Positions 951-29,140 of a DNA stretch of 33,098 nucleotides are shown one piece after another (the stretch's first letter is position 1; every line of letters starts with the position of its first letter). Made by a program: the position numbers and the translations under genes. Source of the stretch: Megasphaera geminata F0357 (lineage in GTDB: Bacteria; Bacillota; Negativicutes; Veillonellales; Megasphaeraceae); contig NZ_JH417562.1 in NCBI RefSeq assembly GCF_000239275.1, positions 1-33,098 of the forward strand, read 5' to 3'. The notes below the pieces were generated by a model. It did no database searches. It saw only the letters and a list, made by a program, of their open reading frames with translations, and was not told where the DNA came from.

Positions 951-1019
951 AGTCCCAACAGGCACAGTTAGTTCTGTTTTTCACTTTTGTTTTTTTGGAC
1001 TGTAAGGAGGTTCTCCTAT

Positions 1020-3026
1020 ATGACCACGCAATTCCCGCATATTTTCGAACCCTTCACGGTAAAACGCACGACCTTCAGAAACCGTGTTATTATGCCGCCT
1101 ATGGGCTCCAACTACGCTACGTTTTCAGGTGAAGTTTCAGAGGAAATGAAAAACTACTACGGCCTTCGTGCCAAAGGCGGCACGGCTTTAATTACAGTTG
1201 AAAACGCCTGTATTGATTATCCTTTGGCTACAAACGGTACAAAGCAGCTCCGTATCGACAGCAAGCAGTTCATGCCCGGCCTGTTTGAATTAACCGAGCG
1301 CATTCACAAATACGGCGCGCTGGCCTCCATCCAGCTGAACCATGCAGGCGCCTCCGCTTACCCGGAACGTCTCGGCGGCTTACAGTCCGTATCCTCTTCT
1401 TCCGTTCCTTCCAAGGCAGGCAATCCGGCGCCGCGTCCGTTAACCCGGCGCGAAATCCTGAACATCGTCGACAAATATGCCGAAGCGGCAGAACGGGCAA
1501 TCGGTGCGGGTTTCGATATGGTTGAGATCCATGGCGGCCACTCCTATTTATTAGACCAGTTCCTTTCTCCTCTTTACAACAAGAGGACGGACGAATTCGG
1601 CGGTTCTTATGAAAACAGAGCCCGCTTCGCCCGTCTCGTCATCGAAGCGGTACGGGCCAAGGTAGGTAAATGGACGCGCGTTTCTTTCCGTATCTCTGCC
1701 GATGAATTCATAGAAGGCGGCAATACGCTGGAAGATACTTTGAAACTTCTCGAATACATTATTCCTGAAGTTGATATCATTAATGTTTCCGCCGCTGTAA
1801 ACGACTCCATCCAATATCAGATTGATAAATGCGATCTTCCCGATGCATGGAGAGCTTATCTTTCCGAAGCGGTTAAGAAAAAATTCGGCAAACCCGTAAT
1901 CCTTTCCGGCAATATCCGCGATCCGAAAATCGCCGATGAAGTCATTGCCGCGGGCAAAACGGACTTCCTCGCAATCGGCCGCGGCCTTATTGCCGATCCG
2001 GATTGGTGTAATAAGGCGCAGCACGGTCGAACGGACTGTATCCGTAAGTGTATCAGCTGTAACATCGGCTGCGCCGATCACCGCATTGCCAAATCCAAAC
2101 CGATCCGCTGTACAGTTAATCCCGCCGTTATTGAAGGGGAAGCATATAAGCGCACGAAGATCACGCGCCCCTTGCACGTCGTCGTCATCGGCGCCGGTAC
2201 CGGCGGCCTGGAAACGGCCTGCACGGCGGCGGAAATCGGTTGCAGCGTCACGGTTTTGGAAAAGCGCAACGAAGTAGGCGGTATGGCACGTCGAATTGCC
2301 CGCTTCCCCGAAAAATCCCGAATTGAAGATTTTCCGGCATACCTTGAAAAACGCGCGGCCGCTTTGCCTAACCTGGAAATCCGCATGAACACGAAGGCTA
2401 CCGAAGAACTCCTGGAAGAATTGAATCCGGATATCCTCTACGCGGCAACCGGTTCCGTACCGATGCTGCCGCCTATCGAAGGCCTCCGCGAATTAACGGA
2501 TGCAAAAGATTCAAAAATCCGCTCCATCGAAGGATTCATGTCCGCCATTCCATATTATGAAGCCAACGCGGCGGGAAAAAATGTCGTCATCATCGGTGCC
2601 GGCGCCGTAGGCCTGGACGTTATGGAATTCTTCGCCCTCCGCAAAGCGCACGTGACCGTCATCGAAATGATGCCCGCCTTCGGGAAAGACCTTGATGTCG
2701 TTTCCAAATCGACATTTAAGGACTTATTGGCAACTCACCCCGTCGACATGCATCTCGGCACGGCACTGCAGAAGGTCTGCCCCGACAAATTTGTTGCGGC
2801 GAAAGACGGCACAGAAAGCGAATACCCCTTTGATTTCGGTTTTATCTGCATGGGCCTGGTACCGGATATTCCGAAAGACAATCCGTTTGAAACATATGCC
2901 CGTAAAAAAGGCATTCCCTTCAACAATATCGGCAACAGCCGCAAAACCGGCCAGATTATGCACGGCACGGAACTGGGCCGGGACATTATCAATACAATTG
3001 ACGCCATCGGCGGCTTCGATTTATAA
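1020..3026 (+). CDS. Old-yellow-enzyme/2,4-dienoyl-CoA reductase-like FMN/FAD/4Fe-4S oxidoreductase
   Basis: 668 residues from the ATG at 1020, preceded by AAGGAGG at 1004-1010; upstream in-frame starts would lose this site. Residues 1-330 are an FMN-binding TIM barrel (RVIMPPMGSNYAT; H171-G-G-H174 with Y176 at the usual catalytic position; RTDEFGGSYENR). A 4Fe-4S site follows: C344-x2-C347-x3-C351-x12-C364. Residues 388-396 (VVIGAGTGG) and 522-531 (VVIIGAGAVG) are two Rossmann motifs for FAD and NAD(P)H. This is the layout and length of E. coli FadH (about 670), enoate reductases and BaiCD. Such enzymes carry electrons from NAD(P)H through FAD, Fe-S and FMN to an activated C=C bond. It is first in a cluster with shikimate/quinate enzymes, so I infer a shikimate-pathway enone (3-dehydroshikimate) as substrate rather than a fatty acyl-CoA. 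The family is secure; the substrate is a hypothesis. Confidence 0.93.
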   Translation: MTTQFPHIFEPFTVKRTTFRNRVIMPPMGSNYATFSGEVSEEMKNYYGLRAKGGTALITVENACIDYPLATNGTKQLRIDSKQFMPGLFELTERIHKYGALASIQLNHAGASAYPERLGGLQSVSSSSVPSKAGNPAPRPLTRREILNIVDKYAEAAERAIGAGFDMVEIHGGHSYLLDQFLSPLYNKRTDEFGGSYENRARFARLVIEAVRAKVGKWTRVSFRISADEFIEGGNTLEDTLKLLEYIIPEVDIINVSAAVNDSIQYQIDKCDLPDAWRAYLSEAVKKKFGKPVILSGNIRDPKIADEVIAAGKTDFLAIGRGLIADPDWCNKAQHGRTDCIRKCISCNIGCADHRIAKSKPIRCTVNPAVIEGEAYKRTKITRPLHVVVIGAGTGGLETACTAAEIGCSVTVLEKRNEVGGMARRIARFPEKSRIEDFPAYLEKRAAALPNLEIRMNTKATEELLEELNPDILYAATGSVPMLPPIEGLRELTDAKDSKIRSIEGFMSAIPYYEANAAGKNVVIIGAGAVGLDVMEFFALRKAHVTVIEMMPAFGKDLDVVSKSTFKDLLATHPVDMHLGTALQKVCPDKFVAAKDGTESEYPFDFGFICMGLVPDIPKDNPFETYARKKGIPFNNIGNSRKTGQIMHGTELGRDIINTIDAIGGFDL

Positions 3027-3037
3027 TTTTATCCGCG

Positions 3038-3112
3038 GCGGAGATTCTCTCGAATCTCCGCTTGACGGACGGGTTCACCGGTATTTTCATACCGCGTAAA
3101 GTGAAAATTCAC
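3038..3112 (+). repeat. Three consecutive stem-loops in the flavoprotein-ydiB gap
   Basis: Perfect stem GCGGAGATTC/GAATCTCCGC with a 4-nt loop (3038-3061), then CGGTAT-TTTC-ATACCG (3079-3094), then GTGAA-AA-TTCAC (3101-3112). None is followed by a T run, so these are not standard terminators. They may be mRNA-processing or stabilising hairpins between the two coding regions. Confidence 0.6.
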
Positions 3113-3150
3113 ACATATATATTAAATTGATTCAACAGGAGGAATGTATT

Positions 3151-4029
3151 ATGGGTAAAATCGCAATTACAGAACGTGTTACAGGTCATACCGAATTAAT
3201 CGGCCTCATCGCCTATCCGATTCGTCACAGCATGTCTCCGACAATGCACAACGAAGCCTTCAAAAAATTAGGACTCGACTATGTGTATGTCTGCTTTGAA
3301 GTGGATAACTCCACATTGGAGGATACGGTAAAGGGGCTGCGTGCCATGAAAGTCCGCGGCTGGAACGTATCCATGCCGAACAAAGGACCTATTACGCGCT
3401 ACCTGGATAAACTTTCACCCGTTTCTCAAATCGTCGGGGCCTGCAATACGGTCGTTAACGACAACGGTGTGCTTACCGGCACGATTACGGACGGTACGGG
3501 TGCAATGCAGTCGTTAAAAGAAGAAGGTGTCGACTATGTAGGCGGGAAAATGACAGTTGTCGGCGCCGGCGGGGCCGCTACCGCCATTATCGTCCAGGCG
3601 GCGCTCGACGGAGCTAAGGAAATCACCGTTTTCAACCGTCGGGATGAATTTTTCCCGAAAGCCGAAAAAGTAGTCGCTCAGTTAAATGACCGTACCGATT
3701 GCAAAGTCACCTTATACGATCTTGCCGACCATGAAAATCTTAAACGCGAGCTCGACAGCAGTGATATTTATATTGACGGCACGTCCTGCGGCATGAAGCC
3801 TCTTGAAGACGTAGTCGCCATTCCCGATAAGTCGTATCTCCATAAAGAACTCATCGTTATGGATACAGTATATGCGCCGCGTGAAACAAAACTGATGAGA
3901 TGGGCCGAAGAAGTCGGCTGCCATACTTTCAACGGTCTCGGCATGATGCTCTATCAGGGCGCGGCCGCTTTCAAACTCTGGACCGGCAAAGATATGCCCG
4001 TTGACTATATTAAAGATATTTTATTCTAA
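3151..4029 (+). CDS. ydiB: YdiB-type quinate/shikimate dehydrogenase
   Basis: 292 residues from the ATG at 3151, with AGGAGG at 3137-3142. It oxidises shikimate to 3-dehydroshikimate (and, in YdiB enzymes, quinate to 3-dehydroquinate) with NAD or NADP. The sequence follows E. coli YdiB closely as I remember it: LIGLIAYPIRHSMSP at the substrate site, S74-M-P-N-K78, N99, and D114 in TDGTG, each shifted by exactly seven from YdiB S67/K71/N92/D107. The dinucleotide loop reads GAGGAATA followed by FNRRDEFF, whose aspartate is the YdiB feature linked to NAD use. The biosynthetic operon carries a separate aroE (8093-8917), so this copy probably works in catabolism or interconversion. The asparagine before the catalytic TD in most AroE proteins is isoleucine here (I112). 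Confidence 0.92.
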   Translation: MGKIAITERVTGHTELIGLIAYPIRHSMSPTMHNEAFKKLGLDYVYVCFEVDNSTLEDTVKGLRAMKVRGWNVSMPNKGPITRYLDKLSPVSQIVGACNTVVNDNGVLTGTITDGTGAMQSLKEEGVDYVGGKMTVVGAGGAATAIIVQAALDGAKEITVFNRRDEFFPKAEKVVAQLNDRTDCKVTLYDLADHENLKRELDSSDIYIDGTSCGMKPLEDVVAIPDKSYLHKELIVMDTVYAPRETKLMRWAEEVGCHTFNGLGMMLYQGAAAFKLWTGKDMPVDYIKDILF

Positions 4030-4064
4030 TTTCGTTGCAAAGACATAAAAAGAGAGGTATTACT

Positions 4065-5267
4065 ATGGAACAAACCCGCTCGTATCGTCCCTTATGCCTG
4101 AGTTTGTACTTGAACTACTTCGTACACGGCATCGGCGTGCTCATTCTTGCCCAAAATATGGACGCCTTAGCGGCGCGCTGGGGCAGCCTCGCCGATGTTA
4201 TGAGCGTTATCGGCATGCTCGGTATCGGACGCCTTATCGTCCTCTTCGTTTCCGGCAAGCTTTCCGATAAATACGGCCGCAAACCGTTCGTACTTCTCGG
4301 TATGATTACATATATTGCCTTTTTCATCGGCATTCTGCTCAGCCCGACAACGGCGGTAGCCTGCGTGTTCGGTATTCTTGCCGGCATTGCCAATTCCTTC
4401 CTGGACGCGGGCACCTATCCGGCACTTATTGAATCATATCCCGAAAGCGCCAGCACCGTGACGGTTCTTTTGAAAGCATTCATCTCTGCCGGCCAGTTTC
4501 TCCTACCGCTCTTTATCGGCGTACTCGTTGCCATGAATGCCTGGTACGGCTGGTCTTTCATCATTGCCGCCGTCATCCTTGCAGTCAACTTCCTCATTAT
4601 GCTGAAGATGACCTATCCGTCTATGGACCAGGTTCAAAAATCGGCCAACTCGTCCGGAGAAGCCGTCGAAGACGTACCGAAATCAAAATGGTATATTGAA
4701 GGCATCTGCTTCGTCCTTTACGGGTATATTTCCCAGGCGACCTTCTATCTGATCAGTCAATGGCTGACAAAATACGGCGCCGCCGTCGCTCAAATGGGCG
4801 ATATGGCCGCCCGTTCACTCATGAGCTACTATTCTGTCGGCTCCTTGGCCTGCGTATTCTTTACGGCATTCATTACAAAAAAGGGAGTACAGTCTATTAC
4901 GCTTCTCGTCGTCTATACACTTATTTCTACCCTGGCAATCAGCGGTCTTTATTACTATCCATCGACGGCGCTCGCCCCGATTCTTTCCGCCGTTGTCGGT
5001 TTCTCCGCGGCCGGCGGCGTAATGCAGCTCGGTCTCGTCATGATGACGGAAATGTTCCCCAAAGGCAAGGGCACGATGACCGGTATCTTCTACACAACCG
5101 GCTCTATCGCCTCCTTTACAATTCCCGTCATAACGGGCCGTATGGCAGACAGCGGTATCAACTCCATTATGGGGCTTGACGCAGGCATCGCTCTTGCCGG
5201 CTTCATCGTCGCCTGCATCATTTATGTCCGCTACAATAGTGTTATAAAAGTAAAAAAAGCAGTTTAA
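4065..5267 (+). CDS. ydiN: YdiN-like MFS transporter, probable shikimate/quinate uptake
   Basis: 400 residues from the ATG at 4065, with AGAGAGG about 7 nt upstream. The protein has about 12 hydrophobic segments and the MFS loop motif GKLSDKYGRKPF after helix 2. It resembles E. coli YdiN as I recall it: near-identical patterns around LNYFVHGIGVLILAQNMD, IANSFLDAGTYPALIE, and GFSAAGGVMQLG in the C-terminal half. In E. coli ydiN stands next to ydiB and aroD, and here the homologues of all three are again adjacent. That supports uptake of quinate, shikimate or a related hydroaromatic acid. The gap from ydiB is 35 nt, so they are probably cotranscribed. The substrate is inferred from neighbours only. 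Confidence 0.88.
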   Translation: MEQTRSYRPLCLSLYLNYFVHGIGVLILAQNMDALAARWGSLADVMSVIGMLGIGRLIVLFVSGKLSDKYGRKPFVLLGMITYIAFFIGILLSPTTAVACVFGILAGIANSFLDAGTYPALIESYPESASTVTVLLKAFISAGQFLLPLFIGVLVAMNAWYGWSFIIAAVILAVNFLIMLKMTYPSMDQVQKSANSSGEAVEDVPKSKWYIEGICFVLYGYISQATFYLISQWLTKYGAAVAQMGDMAARSLMSYYSVGSLACVFFTAFITKKGVQSITLLVVYTLISTLAISGLYYYPSTALAPILSAVVGFSAAGGVMQLGLVMMTEMFPKGKGTMTGIFYTTGSIASFTIPVITGRMADSGINSIMGLDAGIALAGFIVACIIYVRYNSVIKVKKAV

Positions 5268-5289
5268 CTAAAATACGGAGGTTTTAACC

Positions 5290-6036
5290 ATGATTACAAT
5301 CGGTAATGTCCGCCTGGATAACGGTATTCCTAAAATTTGCGTTCCCATCGTCGGCGTCGACCCGGCTGAACTCACACAGGAATGCCGCTATCTTCGGGAT
5401 AAAATATATGACGTAGTCGAATTGCGTATCGACTTTTTAAGTGACGTGGAAAATCTTGACGCCGTCGGTGACGCACTCGACGAGGTCCGCAAAGAATTAC
5501 CCGACAGCGCGCTCCTTTTCACGTTCCGCACGAAAGAAGAAGGCGGTGAAACGAACGTATCGGAAGACTACTACTTTGAACTCATCCGCTATGCCGTCAA
5601 CAGCGGCCGGGTCGACGCCGTCGATGTGGAATATTTCCGCAGCGCCGCCAAAATAAAAGAAACGGTTGAACTCGCCAATAAGGCGGGTGTAACGGTTGTG
5701 ATGAGCAATCACGACTTCGAAAAAACACCGTCTTTCACCGAGATATCCGATCGCCTTATCGGCATGAAAGAACGCGGCGCCGACGTTGCCAAACTGGCCT
5801 GCATGCCCCGGTCGGCAAAAGACGTGCTCACGCTTCTTTCAGCAACGGAAAACGTTAAATCCCTCTATCCGGACGAGCCGCTCATCACTATGTCTATGGG
5901 AAAACTCGGGGCCGTCAGCCGCATCAGCGGTGAAATATTCGGCTCGGCCATGACCTTCGGCTCGGCAAAGAAAGCTTCCGCACCCGGTCAGATTGAGGTT
6001 ACGGCCTTACAGAAAATTCTTGAAATTCTCCATTAA
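5290..6036 (+). CDS. aroD: Type I 3-dehydroquinate dehydratase
   Basis: 248 residues from the ATG at 5290, preceded by CGGAGG. It catalyses the syn dehydration of 3-dehydroquinate to 3-dehydroshikimate through a Schiff base. Catalytic residues are all present and offset by two from the Salmonella/E. coli enzyme: E44 and R46 in ELRID, H141 in SNHDFEKTP, Schiff-base K168 in VAKLACMP, R211 in AVSRISG, and Q234 in APGQI. It is the last gene of the LysR-linked cluster, 22 nt after the carrier, and is followed by a strong terminator. No other dehydroquinase is present in this window and none is in the aro operon, so this enzyme may serve both quinate use and chorismate synthesis unless an aroQ lies elsewhere. 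Confidence 0.95.
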   Translation: MITIGNVRLDNGIPKICVPIVGVDPAELTQECRYLRDKIYDVVELRIDFLSDVENLDAVGDALDEVRKELPDSALLFTFRTKEEGGETNVSEDYYFELIRYAVNSGRVDAVDVEYFRSAAKIKETVELANKAGVTVVMSNHDFEKTPSFTEISDRLIGMKERGADVAKLACMPRSAKDVLTLLSATENVKSLYPDEPLITMSMGKLGAVSRISGEIFGSAMTFGSAKKASAPGQIEVTALQKILEILH

Positions 6037-7580: not shown

Positions 7581-8093
7581 TTATCTGTATTCTAAGACAC
7601 GCTTCACAAGCCGCGTCAACTGTCCCGAAACTTCTTCAATCGTTTGATGATTGGCCATCTTATAATCTGCCGATGCATTATACGTATCGATCCGTTCGCG
7701 GTAAAGATCAAAGACCTTCTGAGGACCGTCTTTTAAAAGAGGGCGTTTGGATACATCCACATCAGCGGCGATATCGGCAGGATCTCTGTCGAGAAAAATG
7801 ATAATCCCGTTTTCCTTGTAAATAGCAATATTTTCCGGCCGCTTTACCACGCCGCCGCCGGTCGCCACGACGATTCCTTCCTTACAAGCCAGCGCCCGCG
7901 CCGTCCTCGTTTCGGCGTCGCGGAAACAGTCTTCGCTGACGGCAAAAAGCTCTTTTATCGTCTTTCCTTCCGTTTCTTCCAGATACGTATCGGCATCGTA
8001 AAATTCCCGTCCCAATTCCTCGGCCAGGGCCGCACCGAATGTCGTTTTCCCGCTTCCGGGCATCCCGATAATGATAATATTCCTGTCTTTCAT
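7581..8093 (-). CDS. aroK: Shikimate kinase
   Basis: 170 residues, the usual size. It phosphorylates shikimate at O3 with ATP, the fifth step of the chorismate pathway. The Walker A motif is G10-M-P-G-S-G-K16-T, the shikimate-binding D-A-D-T-Y motif follows at about residue 33, TGGGVV is at about 79, and the lid arginine is in SKRPLL. Its ATG overlaps the aroE stop in a TAATG arrangement, which implies translational coupling. It is the last gene of the operon; I see no convincing terminator between 7580 and the MFS start at 7442. Confidence 0.95.
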   Translation of the reverse strand: MKDRNIIIIGMPGSGKTTFGAALAEELGREFYDADTYLEETEGKTIKELFAVSEDCFRDAETRTARALACKEGIVVATGGGVVKRPENIAIYKENGIIIFLDRDPADIAADVDVSKRPLLKDGPQKVFDLYRERIDTYNASADYKMANHQTIEEVSGQLTRLVKRVLEYR

Positions 8094-8917
8094 TACATAA
8101 AATCCTCCATTTCCCGGGCCAGCTGTTCAACAACTGAAAACTCGATTTCCCGGTCCAGCCAGATTTCTTCCGAACCGATAGCCTGGGCTACGAGCATATA
8201 CATGCCGTTCAACGTACACGCACCGTGCTTCTTTCCATATTGCAGGAAAAGAGTATCTCTGGGGTTATAAATCAAATCGACGACGGCGCCGTATTCCCCG
8301 ACAACGGCTTCATTCACGGGCGAGGCATCACTGTCGGGATACATGCCGACAGGCGTGCAATTGACAATGACATCGCCGCCCGGATGGCGGTTCAATTCGT
8401 TATAATCGATGATATCCGCAATCGTATGATGCATAAAGTTGTCAAAATCCGGTTTGGAATGGGGCCGTCTGGATACTACCGTAATGGCAGCCGCCCCGTT
8501 ATCCGTCAAGTATTGCGTAATCGCTCTGGCCGCACCGCCTGATCCGAGTACGGTACAGGTCCTGCCCTTTACGGCAATGCCGGCGTGTTCCAGTGAGCGT
8601 CCGAAACCGATATAATCCGTATTGTAACCGAAGCAGCCGTCCTCGCGAATATGAATGGTATTTACCGCGCCAATCCGGCGCGCTTCTTCGGAAATTTCCG
8701 TCAAATGCGGCATAACGTCCAATTTATAAGGAATGGTCACATTCATACCTGTGTACTCATTCGCCAATACCTTCAATTCATTCGGTATATCATTGCGATC
8801 CATTTCCAACAAGCCGTATTCCATATCATCGGAAATGTCAAGCATTCTGAACAAGCGTTTGTGAATTTCCGGCGAAGCGCTGTGCCCCAGTTTTCCTCCG
8901 ATAAGACCTAATTTCAT
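8093..8917 (-). CDS. aroE: Shikimate dehydrogenase, biosynthetic
   Basis: 274 residues. It reduces 3-dehydroshikimate to shikimate. Substrate and catalytic residues are in the standard places: S13/S15 in GHSASP, K65 in NVTIPYK, N86, and D101 in YNTDYIG. The nucleotide loop is GSGGAAR with VVSRRPHSK after it; the double arginine fits NADPH. The start overlaps the pheA stop (ATGA) and the stop overlaps aroK (TAATG). It differs clearly from the YdiB-type copy at 3151-4029, which has the NAD-type FNRRDEFF loop. Confidence 0.96.
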   Translation of the reverse strand: MKLGLIGGKLGHSASPEIHKRLFRMLDISDDMEYGLLEMDRNDIPNELKVLANEYTGMNVTIPYKLDVMPHLTEISEEARRIGAVNTIHIREDGCFGYNTDYIGFGRSLEHAGIAVKGRTCTVLGSGGAARAITQYLTDNGAAAITVVSRRPHSKPDFDNFMHHTIADIIDYNELNRHPGGDVIVNCTPVGMYPDSDASPVNEAVVGEYGAVVDLIYNPRDTLFLQYGKKHGACTLNGMYMLVAQAIGSEEIWLDREIEFSVVEQLAREMEDFM

Positions 8918-9768
8918 GTTACCATTCCTCCCTTGGCTGACGGGTAATTACCCAGAATTTTAAGGTACTTGCAATGTCTTTTTAATTCTTCCACGGCCTC
9001 TGCCGTACCCACTTCATCAAGACTGCCGGTCACGTCAATATGAAAGGAGTATTCGAAAGGGCGTCCCGGTATAGGCCGTGACTCCAGATGCGTCATATTC
9101 ATATGCCTGTGAAAAAAATGCCCCAATACGTGATAAAGCGCACCCGGAACATGTTCCGTAATAACTACGACAGTAAGCTTGTCTTTACGTACTGCGGCAC
9201 AATCCGCCGCCGAGATAATAATAAAACGGGTATAATTCGTTTTATTCGCCGCAATGTCCGGGACGAGAATTTTCAGCCCGTACAGCTCCGCCGCCTGCTC
9301 ACCCGCAATGGCGGCTGCCGTTTTGGATCGTTTCGCGGCCACTTCGCCGGCACTTTGAGCCGTGCTGAAATACGTATGTAAACGCCATTCCGGGTGTTTT
9401 CGCAGAAAATCATAACATTGCGCGAACCCCTGAGGATGTGAATACACTTCTTCTATATCGCTCAATGCCGCTTCTTTAAGACCGAGCAACTGATGCTGCA
9501 CACGGATGTATTCTTCGCCGACAAGGCGGCACTCATAGCGCCAGACAAGGTCATATACCTCGGCAATACCGCCGGTAGACGAGTTTTCTACCGGCAGGAC
9601 CCCGTACGTGCGTTCTCCCGAAGCAACGGCCCGGACGAGGTCTTCAAAATGATCGTAATACATGACACGGCCCACGTCGTTAAAATGCCGGCGCATAGCC
9701 GCATCACTGTAAGAACCGGGAGCGCCGAAACAGCCCAGCGTATACGGGTTCCTGCCGTTGTCGGTCAT
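8914..9768 (-). CDS. pheA: Prephenate dehydratase (monofunctional, with ACT domain)
   Basis: 284 residues from the ATG at 9768, which has GGGAGGGAG just upstream; longer in-frame starts would run back through aroC. It converts prephenate to phenylpyruvate. The catalytic domain spans residues 10-190 with GAPGSYSDAA, LPVENSSTGG and the NYTRF motif. The C-terminal ACT domain carries the ESRPIPG phenylalanine-binding signature, so feedback control by Phe is expected. No chorismate mutase domain is fused to it. The ATG overlaps the aroC stop by 4 nt (ATGA). Confidence 0.95.
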   Translation of the reverse strand: MTDNGRNPYTLGCFGAPGSYSDAAMRRHFNDVGRVMYYDHFEDLVRAVASGERTYGVLPVENSSTGGIAEVYDLVWRYECRLVGEEYIRVQHQLLGLKEAALSDIEEVYSHPQGFAQCYDFLRKHPEWRLHTYFSTAQSAGEVAAKRSKTAAAIAGEQAAELYGLKILVPDIAANKTNYTRFIIISAADCAAVRKDKLTVVVITEHVPGALYHVLGHFFHRHMNMTHLESRPIPGRPFEYSFHIDVTGSLDEVGTAEAVEELKRHCKYLKILGNYPSAKGGMVT

Positions 9769-10859
9769 GTATATCTCCCTCCCTGCGTGAGGAGTATGTC
9801 TAAAATCGTCCAGGCGGCGGCATTTTCGATAACCGGCACGGCGCGTTGTACAATACACGGATCATGGCGGCCCTTTATAATCAGTTTGGCATTCTTTTTA
9901 TCGTCCGTATCAACAGTGTCCTGTTCTTTGCCGATGGAAGCGGCGGCCTTAATCACGGTGCGGAAAAGAACGGGCATGCCGTTGGTAATACCGCCGTTAA
10001 TACCGCCGTTATGGTTGCTTTTCGTCCTGACGGTCCCGTCCGCATCATAATACATCGCATCGTTACTTACGGAGCCTCTCATGGCGGCAAGAGCGAAGCC
10101 GTCACCGAAAGAAAGTCCCTTGACGGCCGGAACGGCAAAGAGCATGCGTGCAAGACCGCTTTCGACGGAATCAAAGAGAGGATCACCGTACCCGGCAGGA
10201 AGCCCCGTTATCATCGCTTCGATACAGCCGCCGACAGAATCGCTATCCTCTTTGGCGGCTGTGATGACTTCCGCCATACGCCCTGCCTGCGGTTTATCCA
10301 GAACGGGCAGCGTTTCTCGTGTCAGCCTCTCAAAGACGGCCGGTTCCTCCCCCAACGGATTAAACGGGCGATCCGCAACTTTCTCTATCTGTAAAATATG
10401 AGCCCCCACACGGATACCGCGCCGTGCCAGAATTTGTTTTGCCACGGCTCCGGCAAATACAATCGGTGCCGTCAACCGGCCGGAAAAATGACCGCCGCCG
10501 CGATAATCGTTATAGCCGCCGTAACGGATTTTCCCCGTATAATCGGCATGGCCCGGACGCATGAGATGACGTAAATCATCATAATCTCCGGAACGGACAT
10601 CGCTGTTGGCAATCATAACGGCCAGCGGAGTACCTGTCGTATGCCCGTTGCAGTAACCGCTTTGCACGGCAAAATCATCACCTTCGGCACGGGGCGTGGA
10701 CATGCTGTTCTTTCCGGGAGCGCGTCTTGCCATTTCCCGCCTTACTTCATCCCAATCGACAGTTTCTCCCGGCGGTAAACCGTCAAGGACTGCGCCGACC
10801 GATACGCCGTGTGATTCACCGTATACTGTTAATTTAAGATTTTCACCGATTGTATTCAT
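9765..10859 (-). CDS. aroC: Chorismate synthase
   Basis: 364 residues from the ATG at 10859, with GAAGAAGG upstream and only 2 nt from the aroA stop. It removes phosphate from EPSP by 1,4-anti-elimination using reduced FMN. The family signatures are present: YGESHG near residue 14, MRPGHADYT near 105, YRGGGHFSGR near 121, and GRHDPC near the C-terminus. It is of the long type with SNHNGGINGG near 290. It overlaps pheA by 4 nt. Confidence 0.96.
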   Translation of the reverse strand: MNTIGENLKLTVYGESHGVSVGAVLDGLPPGETVDWDEVRREMARRAPGKNSMSTPRAEGDDFAVQSGYCNGHTTGTPLAVMIANSDVRSGDYDDLRHLMRPGHADYTGKIRYGGYNDYRGGGHFSGRLTAPIVFAGAVAKQILARRGIRVGAHILQIEKVADRPFNPLGEEPAVFERLTRETLPVLDKPQAGRMAEVITAAKEDSDSVGGCIEAMITGLPAGYGDPLFDSVESGLARMLFAVPAVKGLSFGDGFALAAMRGSVSNDAMYYDADGTVRTKSNHNGGINGGITNGMPVLFRTVIKAAASIGKEQDTVDTDDKKNAKLIIKGRHDPCIVQRAVPVIENAAAWTILDILLTQGGRYT

Positions 10860-10861
10860 CG

Positions 10862-12149
10862 TTATATACCTTCTTCCGTTACCGCGCCGCCGAGCGCTTT
10901 GAAATCCTGCCAAAACGAGGGATACGATTTATCTACACTTTCAGCGCCTTCAATAATAACCGGCCCGTCACACCGCTGTGCCGCAATTGCTAAGGCCATG
11001 GCAATACGGTGGTCGTTCCAGGCGGAAACACGGCCGCCCGTAAGACGGGCAGCGCCTTCTATGACCAACCCGTCCTCTTTTTCCCTTATCGTTGCGCCCA
11101 GCTTGGTCAGCTCCGTCTTGCGCATGCAGGCGGTCGCATTCCTTGAGGCGGACGCGTTTAGCATTGACAATTCTCGTAATACCCCTGCTGAAAGCGCCCA
11201 GTACGGCCAGGACCGGCACGAGATCCGGACAGTCCTCCACATCAACGGTACGTCCTTCCGTTCGCGACGGTACAGCCCGCAGATCGCTTCCGTCACGCTC
11301 GATCCGGCCTCGCATAGACTCGATAAAAGAAATGATCGCCCGATCGCCTTGCAGCGTATGAGACCCCAGTCCCTTCAGCGTGACGGGAGCGCCGATTATT
11401 CCCGCCGCAAGCCAGAACGCGGCCTGCGAATAATCCCCTTCAAGCGTATATTCTCCCGGCCTGTACCGTTGATTGCCGCGTATAAGCCACTGCCCTTCCC
11501 GTTCCTTTTCCACATATACACCGTGCCTCCTAAGACACTCTAGCGTAATGTTAATGTAACTCTCAGATTCGACAGCCGTCGTACTGCGCAAGACGGAATC
11601 ACCGGACAACAGCGGTAAAATCATGAGAAGTCCCGTAAAAAACTGGGAACTCACATTGCCTGCCAGCTCGTATATTCCCGCCTTCAACAGGCCCTGAACG
11701 GTTAAGGGAAGAGAATCCTTTCCTTTTTTATAAAAAATCCCCTTTTGCTCGAACATCCGTAAAAACGGTTCGAGAGGCCTTTCTTTTAACCGTCCGCGCC
11801 CTGTAAAGGTCACTTCCTTCCCGGTCAGAAGGCCGACGGGAATGAGAAAGCGGACAGTCGATCCGGATTCGCCGCAATCGGCCCGGAGCGTATCCTTCGA
11901 TGCGTTTAAGCCGCCCGCTACGGCAACGGCCAACCGACCGTCGGACGATGTTTCGAGAATATTTACGGCTGCACCGAATTCACGGAGCACGCTGGCCGTC
12001 GCTTCCAAATCCCGGGAAGGGGTCATGTTGCGAATAATACTTTTTCCGTCGGTTAAAGCGGCACAAATTAACGCCCTGTGCCCTGCACTTTTCGACGACG
12101 GAACAACGACGGTTCCGTTCAGTTTATTCGGTGTCAGCACTAAATTCAT
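10862..12149 (-). CDS. aroA: EPSP synthase (3-phosphoshikimate 1-carboxyvinyltransferase), frame broken
   Basis: Starts at the ATG at 12149, overlapping the end of aroB by 26 nt. Residues 1-345 are in one frame (PSSKSAGHRALICAAL; LRADCGESGSTVRFL; RLKECDRLHA). The last part (TKLGATIREKEDGL, SAWNDHRIAMALAIA, ending at 10862) is in another. The break falls at about 11118-11124. It could be one extra base, two missing bases, or loss of one copy of a CATGC duplication, since CATGC-CATGC-GCAAG would restore RLHAMRK. With the frame repaired the protein would be about 428-430 residues, normal length. The SGSTVRFL region and the substrate-binding residues look ordinary. The gene sits in the middle of an otherwise intact operon. 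Confidence 0.93.
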
Positions 12150-13212
12150 CGTATAAGCCCCTTTGTAAATACATCTCTATATCACTTAAATCCGCAGGAA
12201 GAAGTTTACCCTGTCCGATCCTCGTGATAATTGCCAGCGTTACACGCCCGCTTCGTCGTTTTTTATCACGTCTGACATAAGGCAGTACATCTTTATCCGC
12301 AGCCTGCGTCTCAACAGGCAGGCCGTATTTTTTCAAAAGTTTTTTCAAACGCCCCGTCGTTCCCGCATCGGTCAGCCCTCTTGCTTCCGTTCCGGCAGTT
12401 ATCCGTACCATGCCTATAGCGACAGCCTCGCCGTGCATATAATGTTTAAATTCGTAGTATTTTTCCACCGCATGTCCGAAAGTATGCCCGAAATTTAACA
12501 GCATGCGCTCTCCCTTGTCGAAAACATCGCCTGCCACAATGTCGGCCTTGGCCTGTACGCAGCGGAAAATGATATCTTCCCACGCAAGTGTGTCAAAACA
12601 GTTCTTTTCAAGAATTTCAAAAAGCTCTCCGTCACGGATACAGCCGTATTTAATAACTTCTCCCATGCCGTCGCGTCGGCATCGGTCCGGCAGGGTCCGC
12701 AACAAGTCCGGATCAATAATCACGGCTTTCGGCTGATAAAAGCTGCCCGCCTGGTTCTTGCCGCTTTCAAGATCGATACCGACCTTGCCGCCGACACTGC
12801 TGTCCACCTGGGCGATAACGGATGTCGCCACTTGAATATACGGCACTCCCCGCAGATAAGTAGCCGCCGCAAACCCGCCGAGGTCACCGCTGACACCGCC
12901 GCCGAAGGTGATAATCGTATCGTCCCGTGTGACGTCAAGGTCTGCAAGGCTGCCGTACAGCCGGGAAAGAGCCGCAAGATTTTTTCCTTCTTCTCCCGGC
13001 GGCAGGACAATAAAATGCGGTGCCGTACCGGAATCAGTGAAAATGCGTGAAAGCCTGCCGCCGTAGAATCCGAAAAGATTCTCATCCGTAATAACGACAG
13101 CTTTTCCGGTACCAAGAATCGGCTTCGCCAGATCCGGCAGTTCTTTTATTATAGCTGAACCTATATGTACGGGATACGTGTCTTTTTCCGTTTTAACCGT
13201 TACGGTCCGCAT
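12124..13212 (-). CDS. aroB: 3-Dehydroquinate synthase
   Basis: 362 residues from the ATG at 13212, with AAGGAG upstream inside the end of tyrA (20-nt overlap). It cyclises DAHP to 3-dehydroquinate with NAD and a metal. The sequence shows the NAD-binding GGGVSGDLGGFAAATYLRG, the VDSSVGGKVGID segment, the GMGEVIKYG motif, and the metal-binding LNFGHTFGHAVE with a further MHGEAVAIGM. The C-terminus overlaps aroA by 26 nt; the aroA ribosome binding site AAGGGG lies within the aroB coding region. Confidence 0.96.
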   Translation of the reverse strand: MRTVTVKTEKDTYPVHIGSAIIKELPDLAKPILGTGKAVVITDENLFGFYGGRLSRIFTDSGTAPHFIVLPPGEEGKNLAALSRLYGSLADLDVTRDDTIITFGGGVSGDLGGFAAATYLRGVPYIQVATSVIAQVDSSVGGKVGIDLESGKNQAGSFYQPKAVIIDPDLLRTLPDRCRRDGMGEVIKYGCIRDGELFEILEKNCFDTLAWEDIIFRCVQAKADIVAGDVFDKGERMLLNFGHTFGHAVEKYYEFKHYMHGEAVAIGMVRITAGTEARGLTDAGTTGRLKKLLKKYGLPVETQAADKDVLPYVRRDKKRRSGRVTLAIITRIGQGKLLPADLSDIEMYLQRGLYDEFSADTE

Positions 13213-14080
13213 GAATCAATCTCCTTCTGCGTTTGGCCGCTTCCGACAGGAACGCGTATAAACGCGCTTCATCTTTATTTTGTAACGCATTTTCCATTTC
13301 CGATAAAGCCGTACGGAAATGTTCTATTTCCGTCAATAAACTTTTTCTGTCGCTCAGAAGCAGCTTTGTCCACAGCGGCGCGTTAATATCGGCTACGCGC
13401 GTACCGTCACGAAAACTGCCGGCAATAAAACACTTCATTTCGTCATTCATGGAAGCGCTGTTCACCAAAGTTGTCGCCAATACGTGAGGCAGACAGCTCG
13501 TATAGGCAATACGCCTGTCGTGCTCCGCCGCCGTAACAATACTTACATGTCCGCATCCCAACGCCTTCGCCAGGGATTTGATAAGTCGGATGCTTTCCTG
13601 TCCGGATCGTTTTGACGGGACGATGATATAGTTGGCGCCTTCAAAAACAGCCGCATCCGCCATTTCATAACCGCACCCCTCACGGCCTGCCATAGGGTGA
13701 CCCGGTACATAGTCGACATATTCCGGCAAAACGGCTTCCACCTCTTCGGCGGAACCGCCTTTGATACCGATAATATCCGTGGCAATCTGTCCCGGACGGA
13801 AGAAGCTTCGGTTCACTTTCATGAACTCTATCATATCGTGAAGGGGCAGACAAAAGATGAGCAAGGCCGCTTCCGCAAGCACTGCATTTCCTTTTGCATA
13901 TCCCGCGTCGATAACCTTGTCTGCAAGCGCCGCCGCCAAGGTTTCTTCGTTGACATCATAAGCGATAATTCTATGTGCGCCTATCTGGCGCAGCCGCCCG
14001 GCAAAAGAGCCGCCCATTACCCCGAGACCGATCACTGCGATTGTACTGTCCCGTAAAAATCGTGTGCTGTCCATTTCCAT
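13193..14080 (-). CDS. tyrA: Prephenate dehydrogenase
   Basis: 295 residues from the ATG at 14080; a second in-frame ATG at 14074 is possible. It oxidises prephenate to 4-hydroxyphenylpyruvate. The NAD domain begins IAVIGLGVMGGSFAG near residue 15, and the substrate region has HPMAGREGCGYEMAD near 150. There is no fused chorismate mutase and no C-terminal ACT domain, so feedback control at the protein level is not obvious. It begins 13 nt after the aroF stop. Confidence 0.93.
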   Translation of the reverse strand: MEMDSTRFLRDSTIAVIGLGVMGGSFAGRLRQIGAHRIIAYDVNEETLAAALADKVIDAGYAKGNAVLAEAALLIFCLPLHDMIEFMKVNRSFFRPGQIATDIIGIKGGSAEEVEAVLPEYVDYVPGHPMAGREGCGYEMADAAVFEGANYIIVPSKRSGQESIRLIKSLAKALGCGHVSIVTAAEHDRRIAYTSCLPHVLATTLVNSASMNDEMKCFIAGSFRDGTRVADINAPLWTKLLLSDRKSLLTEIEHFRTALSEMENALQNKDEARLYAFLSEAAKRRRRLIHADRNG

Positions 14081-14093
14081 TCTCTCGCCTTCC

Positions 14094-15113
14094 TTATACG
14101 GCCCTGCCCACAAGCGGGGCAAGATTCCGCAAATCTTTCATCAGCTCCTCGAACACGGCCGGCGTTATCGACTGAGCGCCGTCGCACAGCGCCTTGTCGG
14201 GATCATTATGCACTTCTATCATCAGTCCGTCCGCGCCTACCGCTATGGCGGCTTTGGCAAGATCAGCCACCATCCAGCGTTTGCCGGCGGCATGACTCGG
14301 GTCGACGACAACCGGCAGATGGCTCAGCTTTTTTACGGCCAGGACAGCGCTGAGATCCAAGGTGTTGCGCGTATATGTTTCAAAAGTACGGATGCCCCGT
14401 TCGCAGAGAATGACGTTACTGTTGCCTTCAGACATAATATATTCCGCCGACATGAGCCATTCTTCAATGGTCGCGCTGAGACCGCGTTTCAAAAGGATTG
14501 GCTTGTTCGTCCTCCCCAGCGCTTTAAGAAGATCGAAGTTCTGCATATTCCGTGCTCCCACCTGAATGAGGTCTATATCTTCTTTAAGAAAAAGATCCAG
14601 TTTATCGGCAGACATGATTTCCGTAACGACAGGCAGCCTTGCTTTCTTGCCGGCAGCCAAAAGCATATCCAGGCCGGAATCGCCCAGTCCCTGGAACGCA
14701 TAAGGCGATGTCCGCGGTTTAAAGGCGCCGCCGCGCAGCATGACCGCACCGGCAGCACGAACATCGCAGGCGACACCCGTAATCTGATCGGCTGTCTCAA
14801 TAGAGCAGGGGCCTGCAATAACCGCAATCTTCCTGCCGCCTACGGGAACACCGCCAACATGGACAATCGTATTTTCCGGATGGAAAGCTCTGCTTGCCCG
14901 CTTATAAGGAGTCTTGACGGCAATAACATCTTCCACATAGTCAAGCGCAGCCATTTTCTCGGTATCAACCGCTTGCGTGTCTCCGACGATGCCGATAACC
15001 GTTTTATCCGCAGTTTTCCGGACATCTGCAGTAGTCAAGCCCTGCCTGTTCAATCCCGTAATGATCTCTCTGATTTTTTCGTCTGATATACCTTCCTTCG
15101 CAATGATGACCAT
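14094..15113 (-). CDS. aroF: DAHP synthase, type I beta with N-terminal regulatory domain
   Basis: 339 residues from the ATG at 15113, with GGAGGGAGAGGA upstream. It condenses phosphoenolpyruvate with erythrose 4-phosphate, the entry step of the shikimate pathway. Residues 1-75 form the ferredoxin-like domain seen in Thermotoga-type DAHP synthase, where it carries Tyr/Phe feedback inhibition. The barrel follows with AGPCSIE, GGAFKPRTSPYAFQG, VGARNMQN, LLKRG and VDPSHAAGKR. It is the first structural gene of the operon and sits just after the leader terminator at 15138-15166. Confidence 0.96.
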   Translation of the reverse strand: MVIIAKEGISDEKIREIITGLNRQGLTTADVRKTADKTVIGIVGDTQAVDTEKMAALDYVEDVIAVKTPYKRASRAFHPENTIVHVGGVPVGGRKIAVIAGPCSIETADQITGVACDVRAAGAVMLRGGAFKPRTSPYAFQGLGDSGLDMLLAAGKKARLPVVTEIMSADKLDLFLKEDIDLIQVGARNMQNFDLLKALGRTNKPILLKRGLSATIEEWLMSAEYIMSEGNSNVILCERGIRTFETYTRNTLDLSAVLAVKKLSHLPVVVDPSHAAGKRWMVADLAKAAIAVGADGLMIEVHNDPDKALCDGAQSITPAVFEELMKDLRNLAPLVGRAV

Positions 15114-15137: not shown

Positions 15138-15166
15138 AAAAAAGCAGGCCCTCATGAGCCTGCTCA
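15138..15166 (-). terminator. Intrinsic terminator in the aro operon leader (attenuator)
   Basis: On the minus strand AGCAGGC-N8-GCCTGCT is followed by six T. It lies between the leader ORF stop (15202) and aroF (15113), so it would end transcription before the operon unless antitermination occurs. Confidence 0.88.
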
Positions 15167-15201
15167 AGTATCATTGAAAAATAGATTGTCAAACAGAAAA
15201 A

Positions 15202-15372
15202 CTATGCATAAACTGCGCGAATCATTCCATTCGATTGAACCCGTCTCATGTCGTTTACTATGCAATTGAATTTGTCGTACCAAAAGTAGCCGACGCTATA
15301 AAAATAATAGCCCCAGCCAAAATATGCAGCAACATATTCAATTGTCTGTAATAACATAGACAATTCGTTCAT
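15202..15372 (-). CDS. Aromatic-rich leader peptide of the aro operon (attenuator peptide candidate)
   Basis: 56 codons from the ATG at 15372, with GAGAGGG 8 nt upstream. A longer in-frame reading back to 15480 is unlikely because it would run through the promoter. Residues 13-35 hold 13 aromatic residues out of 23 (seven Tyr, four Phe, two Trp), with runs such as GWGYYFYS and GYFWYDKF. The ORF lies between a consensus promoter and an intrinsic terminator directly ahead of aroF, the classical layout of an attenuation leader. A ribosome stalling at these codons when charged tRNA-Tyr/Phe/Trp is scarce would be expected to favour transcription into the operon. It is longer than the enterobacterial leaders (14-16 residues), so it could instead be a small membrane-active protein. 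Confidence 0.72.
   Translation of the reverse strand: MNELSMLLQTIEYVAAYFGWGYYFYSVGYFWYDKFNCIVNDMRRVQSNGMIRAVYA
15263..15344 (-). repeat. 9-bp inverted repeat enclosing the aromatic codons of the leader
   Basis: On the minus strand CAATTGAAT (15344-15336) and ATTCAATTG (15271-15263) are perfect complements that bracket the Tyr/Phe/Trp codon cluster. The core ATTGAA can also pair with TTCAAT copies at 15234-15239 and 15173-15178 (the last just before the terminator), giving competing structures. Confidence 0.5.
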
Positions 15373-15411
15373 TTGAAAAACCCTCTCATCAATTAAGTAA
15401 TGATTGACGTT

Positions 15412-15440
15412 ATTGTACCGTTCTGAAAGATACTTGTCAA
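15412..15440 (-). promoter_or_regulatory. Promoter of the aro operon leader
   Basis: On the minus strand: consensus TTGACA (15440-15435), a 17-bp spacer, and TACAAT (15417-15412). Transcription would start near 15405, about 33 nt before the leader ATG. Confidence 0.85.
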
Positions 15441-26763: not shown

Positions 26764-28055
26764 GCCAATACCTCCCCGTCCTTCATTACCAATTTACCGT
26801 CTACAATCGTGGCGACCGCCTTTCCCTTCAAAATCATGCCTTCAAAAGGCGTTGATTTCCCCCGGGAATAGAAATCCTCCGGATCGACTGTCCATTCTTT
26901 ATCCAAATCAATGAGCGTAATATCCGCCTCGTTGCAGACGGCAATGTCACCGCTGTCGAGACCGAGAAGCCGTGCAGGCGTGCTGGTCATAGCCCGGATA
27001 AGAGTCATCAAACTGACGGTACCCGTATGGTAGAGGCAGGTCAATACCGCACCGAGAGCGGTTTCCAGCCCGACGAACCCGCTCGGGGCCAAACTGAACT
27101 CGCAGTCTTTTTCTTCCGCCGTATGAGGCGCATGATCCGTAACGATAGCGTCGATAGTGCCGTCTGCCAGCCCTTCGACAACAGCCCGGCGATGGCTCTC
27201 CGAACGCAGGGGCGGATTCACTTTAAAGCGCGGATCATACGTACGCAGCGCTTCATCTGTCAAAATCATATGCTGCGGGGTTGCTTCGGCCGTAACTTTA
27301 AGCCCCTTCGCCTTGGCCCAGCGCACCATATGGACAGCATTTTCCGTGCTGATATGGGCAATATGGACTGCCGCACCCGTCGCTTCCGCCAAGAGGATGT
27401 CTCTGGCGACGGCAATATCTTCGGCTGCGGCGGGGCGCCCCTTCAGTCCCAATTCGGCGGAGACAGCGCCTTCATGCATGCAGCCGTCTGCAACGAGGCT
27501 CGCCTCTTCACAATGGTCGATGACGATTTTGCCGAACATACTCGCATATTCCATAGCTTTCCGCATGAAATCACAGTTTTCCACATAGCGGCCGTCATCG
27601 GAAAAAGCTACAACTCCTTCTCGCGCCATCCCGCCCATAGCGGACAATTCTTTACCTTCAAGGCCTTTAGACAGAGAGCCGATAATGTTTACTTTAACGA
27701 CTCCTTCCCGCATGATTTTATATTTCAGGCCGTCGACGACGATCGTGCTGTCAATAACGGGCTTTGTGTTCGGCATCGTCGCTACGCGTGTAAAACCGCC
27801 GGCCGCGGCCGCCCGTGTACCGCTGGCAATCGTTTCTTTCTGCGACTGGCCGGGTTGCCGCAAATGCACATGCATATCGATAAGACCGGGTGTAACAACG
27901 AGCCCTTTCGCATCAATAACCGTTGCCCCGGCGGCAGCCAGTTCCGTACCGATCGCCTTGATTTTATTATCTTCCGTAAGGATATCGCACACGGTATCCT
28001 CTCCCGTCGCCGGATTGATCAACCGTCCCCGCTTAACGAGTAATGCCACTTTCAT
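26760..28055 (-). CDS. pyrC: Dihydroorotase (class I, zinc amidohydrolase)
   Basis: 431 residues when counted from the ATG at 28055, which lies only 2 nt from GGAGG. The in-frame GTG at 28049 has an 8-nt spacing and may be the true start. It closes carbamoyl aspartate to dihydroorotate. Zinc ligands are H62 and H64 in DMHVHLRQPG; further motifs are ATMPNTKPVID, AHISTENAV and TDHAPH with the catalytic aspartate. It overlaps the end of pyrB by about 20 nt and carA by 4 nt. Confidence 0.95.
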   Translation of the reverse strand: MKVALLVKRGRLINPATGEDTVCDILTEDNKIKAIGTELAAAGATVIDAKGLVVTPGLIDMHVHLRQPGQSQKETIASGTRAAAAGGFTRVATMPNTKPVIDSTIVVDGLKYKIMREGVVKVNIIGSLSKGLEGKELSAMGGMAREGVVAFSDDGRYVENCDFMRKAMEYASMFGKIVIDHCEEASLVADGCMHEGAVSAELGLKGRPAAAEDIAVARDILLAEATGAAVHIAHISTENAVHMVRWAKAKGLKVTAEATPQHMILTDEALRTYDPRFKVNPPLRSESHRRAVVEGLADGTIDAIVTDHAPHTAEEKDCEFSLAPSGFVGLETALGAVLTCLYHTGTVSLMTLIRAMTSTPARLLGLDSGDIAVCNEADITLIDLDKEWTVDPEDFYSRGKSTPFEGMILKGKAVATIVDGKLVMKDGEVLA

Positions 28056-28980
28056 CGCCTCCTATAATCGTCAGGTACAAGACGGCCATGCGTATGCAGA
28101 CTCCGTTTTTAACCTGTTCCTGAACAGCCGACCGTTCCCCGTAGCAAACATCCGGCTCGATTTCCAGACCTCTGTTCATCGGGCCCGGGTGTATAACGAG
28201 TACGTCTTTTTTAGCCGCCTGCAGCCGTTTTCGATCCATGCCGTAAAGGCTGCGGTACTCGCCTTCACTCGGGAAAAAACCGATGCCCTGGCGTTCTTTC
28301 TGAATACGCAGGACATTAACCACATCAGCCCCGTCAAGGGCTTCATCCAGGTCATAGTGAAGCGTAACGCCCATCTTTGCCAGTTCGGGCTGCAGCAAGG
28401 TCCTCGGCCCGACAAGATGAACGTCCGCACCCAGTTTTTTAAGGCCGTAAATATCGGAGCGGGCCACACGGCTGTGATCAATGTCGCCGACAATGACTGT
28501 TTTCAAGCCGTCCACATGCCCTTTAACTTCAATAATCGTATATAAATCGAGGAGCGCCTGTGTGGGATGTTCATGGGCGCCGTCGCCGGCGTTGATAATG
28601 ATCGGTGCGACATACGTATCGGCAAGAGACGCCGAACCTTCCTGTTTATGCCGCATGACGATGGCATCCGCCCCCATGGCCGTTACGGTAAGGAGCGTGT
28701 CTCTGAAACTTTCCCCCCTTTGACGACGGAGCTGCCGCCGGGGCGTGAAGTTGATGACGCTCGCATCAAGATATTTTGCGGCCAGCTCAAAGGAGCCGCG
28801 CGTACGCGTACTCGGTTCCCAAAACATATTGACAATGGATTTACCGTGCAAAAGCGGCGCCTTCTTGTCAGCACTGTTGACGATATCTTTCATCCTGCGG
28901 GCAGATCGCAGAACAAGCTCAATCTCTTCTTTTGTCGCTCCCGCCAACCCGAGTAAACTTTTTCCTTTTAAACCGGCCAC
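28033..28980 (-). CDS. pyrB: Aspartate carbamoyltransferase catalytic subunit
   Basis: I chose the GTG at 28980, which has AAAGGAGG 5 nt upstream and gives 315 residues. A longer frame to 29028 would be translated from within the leader terminator. It joins carbamoyl phosphate and aspartate, the first committed pyrimidine step. The carbamoyl-phosphate loop is STRTRGSFE, followed by the lysine/arginine loop region (RQLRRQRGESFRDTL), HPTQALLDLYTI, and VIHPGPMNRGLEI. No pyrI regulatory chain gene is near, so a free catalytic trimer as in Bacillus is likely. Expression appears to be set by the PyrR attenuator just upstream. Confidence 0.95.
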   Translation of the reverse strand: MAGLKGKSLLGLAGATKEEIELVLRSARRMKDIVNSADKKAPLLHGKSIVNMFWEPSTRTRGSFELAAKYLDASVINFTPRRQLRRQRGESFRDTLLTVTAMGADAIVMRHKQEGSASLADTYVAPIIINAGDGAHEHPTQALLDLYTIIEVKGHVDGLKTVIVGDIDHSRVARSDIYGLKKLGADVHLVGPRTLLQPELAKMGVTLHYDLDEALDGADVVNVLRIQKERQGIGFFPSEGEYRSLYGMDRKRLQAAKKDVLVIHPGPMNRGLEIEPDVCYGERSAVQEQVKNGVCIRMAVLYLTIIGGDESGITR

Positions 28981-28997
28981 AAGCTCCTCCTTTGCAT

Positions 28998-29026
28998 AAA
29001 AAAGACCTTTGCCGAAGGCAAAGGTC
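28998..29026 (-). terminator. Intrinsic terminator in the pyrB leader
   Basis: Perfect minus-strand stem GACCTTTGCC-TTC-GGCAAAGGTC followed by six T, ending 17 nt before the pyrB GTG. Placed between promoter and gene, it acts as an attenuator. Confidence 0.92.
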
Positions 29027-29049
29027 ATATTATGAGCGCAACAAAAATA

Positions 29050-29077
29050 TGTCCCTTTTTAGCCTCTCCGGACTACA
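29050..29077 (-). promoter_or_regulatory. PyrR-binding anti-antiterminator element
   Basis: The minus strand reads TAGTCCGGAGAGGCT and then AAAAAGGGAC. AGTCC-GGAGAGGCT (29074-29061) matches the PyrR recognition loop (AGUCC-NGAGAGGCU) and GTCC/GGAC can close the hairpin. With UMP/UTP present, PyrR would hold this hairpin and let the downstream terminator form. pyrR itself is not in the window. Confidence 0.85.
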
Positions 29078-29140
29078 TTAAAGGTACAATGAACATTTTG
29101 AACATGCCGGCCTCACGGGGCCGTCTCATATCCTTTTACT

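Follow-up and report, generated by a model that had tools for sequence, protein, structure and literature searches.

A candidate ribosome-mediated attenuator with an aromatic-rich leader peptide upstream of the aro operon in Megasphaera geminata

According to the textbook view, aromatic amino acid genes of Firmicutes are controlled by T-boxes and TRAP. Which device controls the common aromatic pathway of Megasphaera geminata F0357, where a short open reading frame (ORF) rich in aromatic codons precedes the operon headed by aroF? We addressed this question in a window of 33,098 nucleotides (the whole stretch of DNA analysed) and in related genomes. A first-pass annotation of the window had claimed a promoter, an ORF with a ribosome binding site, an aromatic cluster and a terminator with six T in front of aroF, and had read them as an attenuator. 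We find every one of them, on the minus strand like the operon itself. The claimed seven further aromatic genes after aroF were likewise recovered with NCBIfam models.

Anatomy of the aro leader

The features of the locus are:

15412–15440, minus strand: sigma-70-type promoter, TTGACA-17-TACAAT, 11 of 12 consensus positions matched
15202–15372, minus strand: leader ORF of 56 codons, MNELSMLLQTIEYVAAYFGWGYYFYSVGYFWYDKFNCIVNDMRRVQSNGMIRAVYA, with ATG at 15372 and TAG at 15202; relatives keep 53–57 codons
15353–15361, minus strand: segment A (GUCUAUGUU), pairing with B; putative anti-antiterminator, outer helix of the 1:2 hairpin (MFE fold; A/B coevolution, permutation p = 0.0007)
15336–15344, minus strand: H0 5′ strand (CAAUUGAAU), from folding
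15308–15319, minus strand: H1 5′ arm (UGGCUGGGGCUA), codons W-G-Y
15268–15336, minus strand: aromatic control codons Y13 to F35, 13 of 23 residues (7 Y, 4 F, 2 W)
15287–15298, minus strand: H1 3′ arm (UAGCGUCGGCUA), codons S-V-G-Y
15263–15271, minus strand: H0 3′ strand (AUUCAAUUG), from folding
15245–15251, minus strand: segment B (ACAUGAG), common to A:B and the putative antiterminator B:C
15153–15158, minus strand: segment C (CUCAUG), terminator 5′ side and loop, the partner of B
15142–15165, minus strand: intrinsic terminator hairpin GAGCAGGCUCAUGAGGGCCUGCUU, 10 bp, with a six-T tail at 15143–15138
14094–15113, minus strand: aroF, 3-deoxy-7-phosphoheptulonate synthase, first gene of the operon (PRK08673, 487.9 bits)
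7581–14122, minus strand: tyrA, aroB, aroA, aroC, pheA, aroE and aroK, the remainder of the operon in this order (NCBIfam)

The ribosome binding site GAGAGGG lies upstream of the leader ATG, and the terminator is strong (-16.7 kcal/mol). As in a ribosome-mediated attenuator, a short ORF with a ribosome binding site is enriched in codons for the product of the operon, and an intrinsic terminator is located between this ORF and aroF. The 23-residue core of the peptide, YVAAYFGWGYYFYSVGYFWYDKF, has the highest aromatic count among all reading frames of the window (runner-up 10). In dinucleotide-shuffled windows the maximum was 8.5 aromatics on average, and 13 were reached in 1 of 60. Taken alone, the aromatic cluster is rare, not impossible; it is non-random because it is placed before aroF and conserved.

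Two other parts of the window were noted. The aroD gene is missing from the aro operon, and its enzyme, a type I 3-dehydroquinase, is encoded in a plus-strand cluster at 987–6036 together with an FMN/NADH:flavin oxidoreductase, a second shikimate/quinate dehydrogenase and an MFS transporter. A PyrR binding site (RF00515, 54.6 bits) is found at 28996–29088 on the minus strand, just upstream of the minus-strand ORF 28033–29028.

Conservation upstream of aroF

We aligned the window with eleven further Megasphaera-family genomes (12 sequences), all of which carry a leader of 53–57 codons at the same place. In 11 columns of the alignment, at least 10 of the 12 sequences have an aromatic residue, and in two of these columns it is Tyr in 12 of 12. 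The variability of the aligned core is 0.26 at third codon positions compared with 0.16 at first and second positions, and gaps come in multiples of three, both as expected of a translated ORF.

These observations also bear on the alternative that the leader is a metabolite- or protein-binding RNA (riboswitch, T-box or TRAP-like) and the ORF incidental. H0 and H1 are conserved and structured, and the leader folds strongly (z = -5.2), as this explanation would predict. It does not account for indels that keep to multiples of three in the aligned core while 53–57 codons are retained, nor for aromatic codons that are conserved in lineages without H1. Apart from a T-box and a cobalamin switch elsewhere, no Rfam match was found in the window leader or in 20 related loci. 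An L20-leader match (E = 0.057) was far below its cut-off and was dismissed. T-boxes and TRAP, which the first-pass annotation had named as the usual alternatives, are excluded at the aro locus: the T-box model RF00230 does not match the aro leader while 12 T-boxes occur elsewhere in the genome, and the TRAP gene (mtrB) was not found in the genome, which is 88% complete. We consider a binding RNA very unlikely.

More widely, in a sample of 99 aroF loci drawn from several phyla, roughly half to three quarters are preceded by a leader ORF rich in aromatic residues. At least nine aromatics within 20 residues of an upstream ORF were found at 49 of the 99 loci, compared with 0.35% of shuffled upstream sequences and 0 of 98 control stretches. 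Examples are Clostridium (MKGLEKNLLAKFYSFFYFIFWGFYYSAGYFFCKNKYKTFLMSV), Pelosinus, Sporomusa, a Synergistaceae bacterium, Treponema, a Fusobacteriaceae bacterium and Oscillospiraceae, and a terminator is located downstream of most aromatic leaders. The leader is not universal: among 80 aroF loci from genome contigs, 26 have fewer than seven aromatics upstream, and L035 counts among these 26 because its upstream sequence is too short. We looked among relatives for a loss of the cluster or the terminator, which had been named in the first-pass annotation as evidence against attenuation, and found both conserved upstream of aroF.

The earlier suggestion that the leader senses Tyr, Phe and Trp together is borne out only at the level of codon content. 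Positions with Y and F are conserved; the main Trp codon lies in an RNA helix and may be kept for pairing. Sensing of Trp is the uncertain part, since the Trp codon that is best conserved sits in H1 and becomes Arg, Leu or Gln in other lineages; by this comparison, sensing of Phe and Tyr appears better supported than sensing of Trp.

Alternative pairings and the predicted switch

We searched for contiguous helices between the 3′ part of the leader and the 5′ side of the terminator, testing them against dinucleotide shuffles. Over 67 loci the helices beat the shuffles with a Fisher p = 7e-15, a value that is too optimistic because the loci were taken as independent though some are close relatives; 22 loci individually have p < 0.05. 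A general RNAduplex search with free loops was too noisy and was replaced by the contiguous helices, and the H1 3′ arm showed no consistent complementarity to the terminator as an antiterminator. In the window, segment B (ACAUGAG, 15251–15245) is complementary to CUCAUG (15158–15153) in the terminator 5′ side and loop. This helix has only 6 contiguous base pairs, and at the level of this locus the shuffle p is 0.33 and the best helix is a different one; support for B:C as the putative antiterminator comes from the cross-lineage comparison and not from the window alone. The pairs are lineage-specific, as in CUAAUGAG/CUCAUUAG. Clostridium has UAAUGAG with CUCAUUA, Veillonella-type loci (L026 and L028, family f4 of the order) have CUACGGGUA with UACCCGUAG, Oscillospiraceae GGUUUGGCUG with CAGCCAAACC, Treponema GUGGAAGUC with GACUUCCAC and Monoglobus GUAAAGCCCG with CGGGCUUUGC. 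Comparison of the 67 loci points to an antiterminator (2:3) that would compete with the terminator.

In the f4 loci (L026–L030) the leader lacks H1, and the aromatic run is followed by S/R-T-G-K, whose codons ACGGGUA are complementary to UACCCGU of the terminator; this peptide motif seems to be dictated by RNA pairing.

In the Megasphaera group, codons ~4 to ~43 of the ORF fold as a single long imperfect hairpin. In the window H1 (UGGCUGGGGCUA/UAGCGUCGGCUA) is apical, H0 (CAAUUGAAU/AUUCAAUUG) lies beneath it and A:B closes the base. The A and B segments vary by group, and among Megasphaera relatives, with a single representative per group, A and B of one group match each other better than they match segments taken from other groups (permutation p = 0.0007). 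Together with the stall folding described below, this points to A:B as an anti-antiterminator (1:2) that is opened by a stalled ribosome. The first-pass annotation had located neither pairing; both exist and coevolve, in line with its reading of the locus as an attenuator.

Such coevolution is difficult to reconcile with constitutive tuning, in which the terminator sets a fixed read-through fraction and the ORF encodes a membrane-type microprotein outside regulation. The peptide is indeed aromatic and hydrophobic and the terminator is strong, as constitutive tuning would have it, but this explanation leaves unexplained the lineage-specific B:C complementarity, the A:B coevolution and the placement before aroF, aroB, tyrA or an ACT-domain gene. 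We regard it as the least probable of the explanations considered.

H1 is common to the Megasphaera group, Clostridium and others. Its alignment cells are paired in 85% of cases compared with 25–46% when the strands are slid, and a second comparison gave 332 of 432 against 321 +/- 3.6. Covariation is modest: 8 of 500 shuffles have as many base pairs with changes in both partners, and 42 of 500 reach the percentage paired. Since the motif W-G-Y/F-x-F-S-A-G-Y is kept from Megasphaera to Clostridium, the leader could instead be a nascent-chain arrest peptide. Stalling would then be caused by the conserved WGYxFSAGYF motif, perhaps together with an aromatic ligand, and not by empty aromatic codons. 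The conserved residues, however, are those of both H1 arms, and the codons AGC, GGC and GCU are kept even in AT-rich Clostridium, as RNA pairing requires. Moreover, the leaders of Veillonella-type loci, Oscillospiraceae and Treponema keep the aromatic cluster and B:C without the motif. An arrest peptide appears improbable on this evidence. As for H1 itself, one guess is that RNA polymerase pauses there and so keeps step with the ribosome.

We modelled stalling by equilibrium folding of a transcript ending at C, in which only RNA downstream of the ribosome may pair. In the window the predicted probability of B:C rises from 0.04 in free RNA to 0.98 when averaged over stalls at aromatic codons. 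Over 12 loci the mean rises from 0.08 to 0.74 with an increase in 12 of 12 (Wilcoxon p = 0.00024); switching is weak in L005 and L015 (0.25 and 0.41). From codon 38 on the probability is zero by construction because B is under or behind the ribosome. When pairing across the ribosome was allowed, the probability of B:C was low at many aromatic codons, so the switch rests on the assumption that no such pairing occurs. This is the usual assumption in attenuation models.

We conclude that the element is very probably a ribosome-mediated transcription attenuator of the common aromatic pathway. This reading is supported by the anatomy of the locus, its conservation, the coevolution of A:B and B:C across lineages and the predicted folding switch. 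For translation of the leader, ribosome stalling and read-through upon starvation we infer the following course. When charged tRNA-Tyr and tRNA-Phe, and perhaps tRNA-Trp, are plentiful, the ribosome would run to the leader stop codon, from where B could not reach C because the stop lies between B and C. The hairpin of A, H0, H1 and B would re-form behind the ribosome, the terminator C:D would fold and RNA polymerase would stop before aroF. Under shortage of an aromatic amino acid, the ribosome would instead stall at an aromatic codon inside the hairpin and keep A from pairing. Free B would then pair with the emerging C as the antiterminator, no terminator would form and all eight genes would be transcribed.

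The position of B relative to the stop codon differs between lineages. In most of them B ends no more than ~30 nt from the stop, so that it would often be covered by a ribosome that has reached the stop or its vicinity. Megasphaera relatives have B about 37–46 nt upstream of the stop. The B:C comparison and the stall folding suggest that in this group B can be kept from C by the A:B helix together with the location of the stop between the two segments, and that this arrangement may account for the length of the Megasphaera leader.

Known systems and distribution

The aro leader has no family match in Pfam, NCBIfam or Rfam. By comparison of its structure, it appears to work like a trpL/pheL attenuator. 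The proteobacterial trpL, pheL and hisL attenuators (Vitreschak et al. 2004, as cited in PMC9413887) share the leader with codons for the product, the 1:2, 2:3 and 3:4 pairings and the intrinsic terminator before the operon. In contrast to these, the aro leader has mixed Tyr, Phe and Trp codons for a common pathway, its long ORF (53–57 codons) contains both the complete 1:2 hairpin and the antiterminator strand, its sensing codons lie inside the hairpin, and it occurs in Bacillota and other anaerobes. Leader-peptide attenuation in place of T-boxes is also known from the Firmicutes His-leaders (PMC9413887, PMC2965389), which differ in their histidine codons, their his or hisS genes and their lineages.

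The first-pass annotation had placed this layout in proteobacterial trp and phe operons. It is known there but is not confined to them, as aromatic shikimate uORFs have been reported as candidates. The uORFC-13-1 motif of Acholeplasma aroF is described in PMC8632094 as a candidate uORF with Phe codons and resembles the aro leader in having a promoter, a ribosome binding site, a Phe-codon uORF and a terminator directly upstream of aroF. Judged by that description, it differs in its restriction to Acholeplasma and metagenomes, its Phe codons and the lack of a stated antiterminator. The legend of Fig. 6b in Stav et al. 2019 (PMC6429828) lists two candidate uORFs of shikimate genes with notable Phe and Tyr. 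Clostridium novyi and Thermovirga lienii are among the genomes studied there, and the range of some C. novyi motifs extends to Negativicutes. By their description these uORFs may well include members of the aro-leader family, though the main text gives no mechanism for them. Since such uORFs are already in print as candidates (PMC6429828, PMC8632094), ribosome-mediated attenuation as a kind of control is not new here. A description of the three-way switch, the mixed codon set and the wide distribution was not found in the literature searched, which is not proof of absence. The element is widespread among gut anaerobes and uncatalogued. We lean towards a single ancient attenuator class that senses Phe and Tyr (possibly Trp) through one mixed peptide, whose C-terminal sequence is dictated by the antiterminator strand inside the ORF. 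It would be the chief regulator of the shared aromatic pathway in many anaerobic Bacillota, and it would be present in Synergistota, Spirochaetota and Fusobacteriota as well. As the parts of the switch are defined to the base, it is directly testable and useful for annotation.

A T-box is located directly upstream of trpE in the genome of the window (G000:C56:31669-33385; L116, L148). With a T-box before trpE and a leader attenuator before aro, control of the Trp branch appears to rest on another device than control of the common pathway, so that one genome would divide the labour between two logics.

In this genome, the covariance model of H1 has a single significant site, the aro leader. Among 398 genomes of the phylum, all but two of the matches with E <= 6e-4 have an aromatic leader and precede aroF or aroB. 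Of the remaining two, one is cut by a contig end, and the other is an additional copy in G006 upstream of an ACT-domain gene. Weak R1 matches in the phylum search (E >= ~0.001; L136–L139, L142–L146) had no aromatic leader and were taken as chance. Seven relatives that have neither aroF in the operon nor a retained leader (G017–G019, G021, G022, G024, G027) lack the motif, and G001, which also lacks operon aroF, has no H1 match. In G005 (L149:1451-1850) the operon has lost aroF, and the leader, B, C and terminator are intact before tyrA, the head of the shortened operon. The genes that follow leaders found with the model are aroF, aroB, tyrA and an ACT-domain gene. The leader L132 (genome G425) is of the same kind and lies directly before aroB, not aroF. 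The second leader copy of G006 (MKVLSSLPMTIASVFTYFSWSFFSAGYFGYGEYNRDNGDMGIGKTAEPVFSGV; L147:1370-1660, C1:880700-880738, minus strand) has a terminator and segments B (CAUGGGC) and C (GCUCAUG) that match each other. It precedes a gene with a pair of ACT domains ~2 kb from the aroF leader, and the two leaders are separated by a class I DAHP synthase gene on the opposite strand.
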